DNA of 64,000 nt from an uncultured Opitutia bacterium (GTDB lineage: Bacteria > Verrucomicrobiota > Verrucomicrobiia > Opitutales > UBA953): positions 124,001-188,000 of the forward strand of contig CAIMFJ010000004.1 of the NCBI GenBank assembly GCA_903840355.1. Direction: 5' to 3'. A program made the translations under genes and the position numbers. This document shows, in pieces, positions 26,526 to 28,018 of the stretch. Position 1 is the first letter of the stretch; each line of letters opens with the position of its first letter. Under the pieces are notes generated by a model. The model was given only the letters and a program-made list of their open reading frames with translations, made no database searches and was not told the origin of the DNA.

Positions 26526-26921
26526 ATGCAGACCCTAGGTGAAAGACTACAGGAAGCTCGCCAGCGCCTTGGAGTGACCATTCGCGAAGCTGCCGAGTTT
26601 ACCAAAATCCGCACGGATTATTTACAGGCCATGGAGGCCAACCAATTTGAATCGATTCCGTTGGCTGATGTTTACAAGCGTGGCTTTGTGAAAGTTTACG
26701 CCAAGTACCTGCGTTTGGATGATGAGAAGGCCGCCGCGGATTTTAATTCGCACCATTCGCTGCGGGCGGCTCGCCGTCCATTAGATGGCGGAGCAGAAGA
26801 AGCGGCGGAAGGTCAGGCTGAAGAAACGGCCAGCCCCGTGGCTTTAAATCGCGATACCCTTATCTACGGAGTACTCGGCTTGGGCATTGTCGTCCTACTG
26901 ATTTGGGCGGTTTTTCGGTAG
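26526..26921 (+). CDS. RodZ-like protein, N-terminal HTH and membrane segment (zero frame)
   Basis: This frame encodes 131 residues: a Xre-type helix-turn-helix of the RodZ (HTH_25) type (TLGERLQEARQRLGVTIREAAEFTKIRTDYLQAME, then LADVYKRGFVKVYAKYL), an acidic linker, and one membrane helix (LIYGVLGLGIVVLLIWAVF) right before the TAG stop. RodZ couples the MreB cytoskeleton to the cell wall machinery through this HTH and has a periplasmic domain after the membrane helix. That domain is missing in this frame but is found in the -1 frame just downstream. The full-length protein is probably made by frameshifting, or the gene is disrupted by one base. Confidence 0.75.
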   Translation: MQTLGERLQEARQRLGVTIREAAEFTKIRTDYLQAMEANQFESIPLADVYKRGFVKVYAKYLRLDDEKAAADFNSHHSLRAARRPLDGGAEEAAEGQAEETASPVALNRDTLIYGVLGLGIVVLLIWAVFR

Positions 26922-27343
26922 GCCCGTCTTCATCGACGGGCCAAAACAAACGACCTGAATCGCGCCCTAAGGCGGTAGCTCCCGTACCTACGGGGCGACC
27001 TCATTTAGTCGGCATCTCCTCGATTCGTCCGGATACCTCTTTTCAGATTTTCGAGCAGAGCACGGGCGAATTACGGAAGTCCGGGGTACTTGCCCCGCGC
27101 AACGGGGAAGAGCTCTGTAGTGTCCGCGGGGCCTTTGTGGTGAAGTCGAACGCCATCGAGTTTTTACACGTTCGCATCGATAATATTTCTTATAATATCC
27201 CCCCCGATAAGTCGGGTTTTGACCCAGCTTATTTCCCGGATCCAGAGACGACTCCACCAGCGGTTTTCCCGACTAATAAAGCGGCCCCGACGAAATCAGG
27301 CACGGCTCCAGGCAAGGCGAATACTGCCCCTAAGGGACGTTAG
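26903..27343 (+). CDS. Periplasmic-type C-terminal domain in the -1 frame after the RodZ-like gene
   Basis: This frame overlaps the RodZ-like frame by 19 bases and is open from a TTG at 26903; no ATG or GTG starts it. The 146 residues start in the preceding membrane segment. A Pro/Ser/Lys linker comes next, then a compact beta-rich domain (SFQIFEQSTGELRKSG, FVVKSNAIEFLHVRIDNISYNI) and a Pro/Ala/Thr/Lys tail. A DUF4115-like RodZ C-terminal domain is a possible match; it is not proven. Joined to the upstream frame by a -1 shift at the T run, the fusion would have about 272 residues. Separate translation from TTG by coupling is an alternative. Confidence 0.5.
   Translation: MGGFSVGPSSSTGQNKRPESRPKAVAPVPTGRPHLVGISSIRPDTSFQIFEQSTGELRKSGVLAPRNGEELCSVRGAFVVKSNAIEFLHVRIDNISYNIPPDKSGFDPAYFPDPETTPPAVFPTNKAAPTKSGTAPGKANTAPKGR
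26909..26942 (+). promoter_or_regulatory. Candidate programmed -1 ribosomal frameshift signal in the RodZ-like gene
   Basis: A run of five T (26911-26915, in GGTTTTT) is followed by a five-base spacer (CGGTA, containing the first bases of the zero-frame stop). A perfect eight-base-pair hairpin comes next: GGCCCGTC (26921-26928), loop TTCATC, GACGGGCC (26935-26942). Slippery run, spacer and hairpin have the geometry of bacterial -1 frameshift sites. The zero-frame codon TTT can re-pair as TTT in the -1 frame, while the preceding GTT to GGT pairing is poor. No T-tract follows the hairpin on either strand, so it is unlikely to be a terminator. Function is inference. Confidence 0.5.
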
Positions 27344-27400
27344 GTTTAAGGTGGTGCTGGGGGTTGACCGTCGGGCCTTTTCGAGTAAGGGTGAAGGTGC

Positions 27401-28018
27401 TTGGTGCAACGTTCTGAACATCGCGTCTTGGTATTAAACCGACTTTGGCAGCCGGTGAACATCGTCGGTGTGCATCGGGCTTTAAGTCTACTTTTTCGGG
27501 GTCGGGCCTCAGCGGTGTATGCGGACGAAGGGAGTCATCGGGTGATGAATGCGGAAGAGTGGGTGAATTTCTCTTTAACCACTCCGCCGCCGCAGAGTGA
27601 GGCGGTCCGTTCTCCTTGCATGGCACTTCGCATTCCACGGGTGCTCTTGTTGAGTGCTTATGACCGGGTACCGCGTCGCGAGATTCGTTTCAGCCGCCGC
27701 AACATTTACCTCCGTGATGCCAACACTTGTCAGTATTGCGGGCGGGTGTTTCGCGAGGAAGAACTGAATTTAGATCACGTGGTGCCGCGTGATATGGGAG
27801 GGAAAACTAATTGGGAGAATATCGTGACGGCCTGTGTGCGGTGTAATTCCCGTAAAGCCAATCGCTTGCCCGAGCAGGCGGGGATGACCTTGCGGCGCGT
27901 GCCCGCTAAACCAAAGTGGCGACTAGTAGTGGCCTCTTCGCTTTCGCCGGCGGAGATGGAAGCCTGGAAAGAATTTTTGGAAGTCACCCCCGCAGGGCAG
28001 CTTCCGTGGCGTCATTAG
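27401..28018 (+). CDS. HNH endonuclease family protein
   Basis: The 205-residue protein has an N-terminal domain VLVLNRLWQPVNIVGVHRALSLLFRG and an HNH zinc/metal finger: CQYCG near residue 110, the catalytic LDHVVPRDMGGK, then NIVTACVRCNSRK. This arrangement is common in widespread stand-alone bacterial HNH proteins that start with LVLNxxW. Their role is unclear. The start is uncertain: TTG at 27401 or GTG at 27404. The region just upstream is G-rich, with an AAGGTG that could serve as a ribosome binding site. The next features are tRNA genes on the opposite strand. Confidence 0.85.
   Translation: MVQRSEHRVLVLNRLWQPVNIVGVHRALSLLFRGRASAVYADEGSHRVMNAEEWVNFSLTTPPPQSEAVRSPCMALRIPRVLLLSAYDRVPRREIRFSRRNIYLRDANTCQYCGRVFREEELNLDHVVPRDMGGKTNWENIVTACVRCNSRKANRLPEQAGMTLRRVPAKPKWRLVVASSLSPAEMEAWKEFLEVTPAGQLPWRH

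Follow-up and report, generated by a model that had tools for sequence, protein, structure and literature searches.

A predicted −1 programmed ribosomal frameshift signal in rodZ of a genus of Opitutales

Organization of the rodZ locus

Within the window, the 64,000-nucleotide stretch of DNA analyzed here, rodZ lies on the forward strand, where its zero frame (26526..26921) encodes a 131-residue protein composed of a helix-turn-helix (HTH) domain, a linker, and one putative membrane helix. The HTH domain (residues 7–67; 26544..26726, + strand) was located by a Pfam search, in which the zero-frame protein matched HTH_25 (PF13413) with E=1e-18; NCBIfam RodZ models matched the same protein with E-values of 3e-14 and 4e-7, both under the model cut-offs. 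The membrane helix, judged by eye from the hydrophobic stretch LIYGVLGLGIVVLLIWAVF, spans residues about 112–130 (26859..26915, + strand) and ends exactly at the slip codon TTT (26913–26915). Only CGG separates this codon from the stop codon TAG (26919–26921, + strand), and the zero-frame end thus reads GTT TTT CGG TAG.

The −1 frame is open over 26822–27343. From 26915 to 27343 (+ strand) it supplies an extension of 142 codons plus a stop, encoding a Ser/Pro linker, a beta domain, and a Pro/Ala/Lys-rich tail. A −1 slip at TTT would join 130 zero-frame residues to the 142 residues encoded from 26915, giving a predicted fusion of 272 residues with the junction peptide ...IWAVFSVGPSSSTGQNK. Three elements on the + strand mark the junction: a putative slip site, G_GU.U_UU.U (26909..26915), with its core tetramer U_UU.U at 26912–26915 and a T5 run at 26911–26915; a 5-nt spacer (26916..26920); and a predicted stimulatory stem-loop of 8 bp with a 6-nt loop (26921..26942), which opens on the final base of the zero-frame stop (26921). 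A first-pass annotation had described a zero frame ending right after the helix, products of 131 and 272 residues, and a T5 run followed by a five-base spacer and an eight-base-pair hairpin without a T-tract, and the coordinates bear out each of these points. It had also seen no ATG or GTG start for the −1 frame; indeed none lies near the junction, where the sole candidate is a TTG at −15. Other start codons from which the −1 ORF might be read, and Shine-Dalgarno sites ahead of it, were considered and rejected, as they are not conserved among the relatives. Beyond the −1 stop, a TTGACC at 27364–27369 precedes the next gene, which encodes an HNH endonuclease (27395–28018), and may be the −35 box of that gene.

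Slip site and stem-loop across the genus

The window genome (2.27 Mb) was compared with 54 other species of its genus. Most of these relatives are MAGs of largely uncultured bacteria that bear the labels Opitutae, Opitutales, Opitutia, or Verrucomicrobia, and many come from lakes. The zero-frame part of rodZ is kept across the order, and the downstream domain was detected in 38 genomes, all of this genus, and in none of the family's other genera. Every one of these 38 species carries the domain in the −1 frame, keeps that frame open, and places a zero-frame stop at the same position just after the helix; the 38 species are kin, and such counts are hence not independent, and the shared layout in 38 of 38 relatives with the domain is far beyond chance. 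The stop is TGA in 16 species, TAA in 14, and TAG in 8, and this use of all three codons at one place indicates that the stop itself is kept rather than one particular codon. RodZ frames inside the genus are nearly all short. RodZ matches in the order outside the family are all single frames of about 250–420 residues; intact single-frame relatives without a slip site, which by the first-pass annotation would have told against a frameshift, were seen solely beyond the limits of the genus, and one frame is there the ancestral state to be expected.

The T-run at the junction is 5–7 nt long in all 38 species with the domain (T6 in 31, T5 in three), and the zero frame reaches the spacer with the codons TTT TTT in 30 species and with GTT TTT in 7; in L006 the slip region reads TTT TTT TCC AAA. 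A slippery U_UU.U stands in the zero frame in 38 of 38 species, allowing re-pairing in the A site, whereas away from the slip site TTT makes up only 76 of the 305 Phe codons of rodZ. In E. coli, U_UU.Y (U_UU.[U,C]) ranks with the three tetramers most prone to shifting, and IS elements employ it; the main rule for bacterial −1 shifts is cognate A-site re-pairing, and stimulatory stems usually sit 5–8 nt downstream (PMC4066793). Judged from its sequence, the rodZ site agrees with the tetramer, re-pairing, and distance rules alike, the spacer being 5–6 nt in nearly all relatives. In the P site the match after a slip is not perfect (UUU moves to GUU, or GUU to GGU), and shift efficiency may consequently be low. 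The first-pass annotation had taken the poor GTT-to-GGT re-pairing of the window as an argument for low efficiency, which is not a strong one, because the A-site U_UU.U re-pairs cognately and E. coli ribosomes shift especially readily on U_UU.Y (PMC4066793). A better site, G_UU.U_UU.U, is found in most relatives.

To evaluate the stem, we folded the 38 nt beginning at the stop in each species and set the energy against those of 1000 synonymous recodings of the −1 peptide. The window stem, at −17.8 kcal/mol over the 38-nt segment, is more stable than 99% of its recodings (p 0.008), and the stem exceeds the recodings at p<0.05 in 33 of 38 species (mean z −2.6). Twelve control windows along rodZ gave mean z values between −0.8 and +0.3, and eleven of them yielded only 0–5 significant cases among 37–38 species; in the control window about 195 nt past the zero-frame stop, inside the −1 domain, 8 of 38 species were significant (mean z −0.55). 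The stems of five of the 38 species (L003, L004, L017, L026, and L040) were not significantly better than synonymous recodings; L003 and L004 still hold a 7-bp stem. In a gap-free set of 20 sequences, 100% of stem cells are paired, and the covariation score of 0.237, which formally reflects just two variable pairs, the stem arms being strongly conserved, was reached in none of 500 shuffles; slid stem partners score far lower than the actual pairing. Furthermore, two more species, L012 and L013, carry flipped pairs (G-C to C-G, C-G to G-C, and G-C to U-A), their stem being longer but in the same position, and one other clade has a bulged stem variant that starts at the same base. The alignment of homologues that had been proposed as a check thus finds the T-run, the spacing, and a covarying hairpin kept in 38 species of the genus.

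A conserved T-run could also act during transcription, with RNA polymerase slipping on it to yield mRNAs with one U more or less, from which ordinary translation would make the fusion. The presence of a T5–T7 run in all 38 species fits this explanation. However, T5 and T6 runs are short for transcriptional slippage, and runs of these lengths make up most of the set. Moreover, the stem 5–6 nt downstream would still be unmade with the polymerase on the run, yet both stem and spacing are conserved. Although slippage on homopolymers is known in bacteria (PMC5009743, PMC4256274), we consider it very unlikely here.

The −1 segment and the relatives that lack it

The −1 segment contains a RodZ_C-like, all-beta periplasmic domain (27008..27232, + strand), assigned by hhalign and AlphaFold. 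Set against the C-terminal RodZ domain of the out-groups, which have a single frame, a profile of the segment matched over 73 columns at 95.1% probability (E 3.4e-8). In all 12 out-group genomes examined, RodZ encodes this RodZ_C domain in one frame, and the domain matches Pfam RodZ_C (PF13464) in 7 of the 12 proteins. AlphaFold predicts a confident all-beta core for the −1 domain (pLDDT about 93). Searches of Pfam and NCBIfam with the −1 domain of the window protein alone gave no significant match, a marginal Pfam match to RodZ_C was seen in 2 of 37 relatives, and Foldseek against the PDB returned weak all-beta matches only (best E 0.03). The homology to RodZ_C, together with the all-beta model, indicates that the −1 segment is the periplasmic domain of RodZ. 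It is conserved at the protein level, and dN/dS values for the −1 frame of 0.11–0.44 in the 15 closest pairs, with a median of 0.42 over 398 pairs, point to purifying selection. The proposal in the first-pass annotation that the −1 frame holds the missing periplasmic domain is upheld by the homology and the selection. In one pair of species, L012 (G051) and L013 (G014), the compared zero-frame RodZ is identical while the −1 domains and stem loops differ strongly, which may mean that the periplasmic domain has recombined or evolves fast.

Because the −1 ORF overlaps the zero-frame stop, as in many coupled gene pairs, the locus could alternatively represent a gene fission in which the −1 ORF is translated alone by re-initiation after that stop. 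Such an arrangement would call for a start codon, yet no ATG, GTG, or TTG is conserved, about a third of species have none in the searched range, and most relatives lack the TTG that the window has at −15. Nor is there a conserved Shine-Dalgarno sequence for the −1 ORF. A separate product would, in addition, begin in the linker, without the helix needed to reach the periplasm, and re-initiation leaves the TTT bias and the stem spacing unexplained. We judge it very improbable.

Twelve species, eleven in the genus and one in the sister genus g5, have the short form without the downstream domain (L007, L016, L038, L039, and L041–L048); their RodZ is of the 131-residue type, with HTH and helix. 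A T-run of at least 5 nt at the site occurs in none of the twelve, and the conserved stem is missing from all of them, some having unrelated folds there. A tree built on the N-terminal region places nine of these species in one clade nested among the frameshift species, and the presence or absence of the domain requires about three changes. This nesting, combined with the missing T-run and stem, indicates that signal and domain were lost together. A TTGAC motif like that at 27364 stands directly behind the short stop in several domain-less species, an arrangement that may reflect a clean excision of the domain. The genomes of the nine-species clade are mostly small (0.9–1.5 Mb).

This joint loss also bears on whether the stem is a transcription terminator or other RNA element to which the split frame is incidental. 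The stem is perfect and G+C-rich, as a terminator might be, but no T-tract follows it on either strand, the coding sequence past it is still under selection, a search of Rfam gave no match for the element, and the stem is tied to the presence of the −1 domain, making this explanation highly improbable. Finally, a single −1 shift seen in one genome alone would resemble a pseudogene in decay or an error of sequencing or assembly. Such causes have a negligible chance of accounting for a frame relation that 38 species share across independent assemblies, with the −1 frame under purifying selection and the zero-frame stop conserved; a base error at the T-run, about which the first-pass annotation had cautioned, is excluded by the agreement of independent genomes from many lakes.

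Probable frameshifting and the two predicted forms of RodZ

Taken on comparative sequence evidence, rodZ of this genus is highly likely to carry a −1 programmed ribosomal frameshift signal that yields RodZ with or without its periplasmic domain. Ribosomes that stay in frame past the T-run would stop one codon later and release short RodZ, consisting of the HTH and the membrane helix. A fraction of ribosomes would be paused at the slip site by the stem-loop 5–6 nt downstream, and tRNA-Phe on UUU, in the A site or in the P site after translocation, would slip back one base onto UUU. Translation in the −1 frame would then add the Ser/Pro linker and the RodZ_C-type beta domain, which would reach the periplasm by export of the fusion. 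The layout, signals, selection, and homology support the ribosomal shift to a fusion that the first-pass annotation had suggested. We infer that the shift is made by the ribosome rather than by RNA polymerase; both RodZ products would accumulate, and their ratio would probably matter for the Rod complex. We counted against frameshifting that twelve relatives manage without the long form. A search of the window's own genome with the combined slip and stem motif found rodZ and one other match, two in all against one in the reversed-pattern control; matches so little above the control give no sign of a family of such sites in this genome.

Recoding by −1 programmed frameshifting, with a stem and a slip motif of four or seven bases (tetramer or heptamer), is of a known kind in bacteria, among whose cases rodZ is unusual as a core gene. 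To our knowledge, well-supported and deeply conserved −1 frameshifts in non-mobile bacterial chromosomal genes are few, and rodZ is very probably a new chromosomal case. Like rodZ here, dnaX of E. coli combines a homopolymeric −1 slip with a downstream stem to give two products of a chromosomal gene that share their N-terminus. Its site is A_AAA_AAG with an upstream Shine-Dalgarno-like stimulator, and its shifted product is the shorter one. In rodZ, by contrast, ribosomes would slip on (G_)UU.U_UU.U to make the longer product, and we saw no Shine-Dalgarno stimulator. The U_UU.Y sites of IS3- and IS1-family transposases share with rodZ the tetramer, the stem-loop, and a shift to a longer fusion (PMC4066793), whereas they belong to mobile elements and rodZ is a chromosomal cell-shape gene without transposase similarity. 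The copA gene of E. coli is likewise a chromosomal membrane-protein gene with two products differing in domains (PMC5009743), although its shift cuts the protein down to a putative soluble chaperone and that in rodZ would add a periplasmic domain. RodZ of E. coli and B. subtilis (HTH_25 plus RodZ_C) resembles the predicted fusion in having an HTH, one helix, a disordered linker, and a beta-rich periplasmic domain; unlike the split frame described here, RodZ elsewhere, including the 12 out-group genomes, is encoded in a single frame. We found no report of frameshifting in rodZ in the open-licence literature, and RodZ is not named in the available portions of the GeneTack survey (PMC3711429) or of a review (PMC5009743).

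The HTH of E. coli RodZ binds MreB, and residues 1–142, which leave out the greater part of the periplasmic domain, suffice for rod shape, making that domain largely dispensable for it (PMC6946637). The short form described here appears, by analogy, to correspond to this 1–142 construct, and MreB family matches were found in all 55 genomes of the genus searched. The short form would then serve as the basic anchor for MreB, with the long form as a minority or regulated variant making contact with partners in the periplasm. The shift rate could conceivably act as a sensor, with helix insertion or binding of RodZ to the stem altering the share of long RodZ and so tuning the MreB anchor; binding to the stem is conceivable given that Shigella RodZ is reported to bind RNA (PMC7018016), but we regard such a sensor as doubtful. 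Gene callers would probably log just the 131-residue protein at this locus and miss the domain. rodZ is a core cell-shape gene, and its two predicted forms differ only in the periplasmic domain. A lineage that doses this domain by recoding, and has lost it at least twice, would constitute a natural experiment on the role of the domain.
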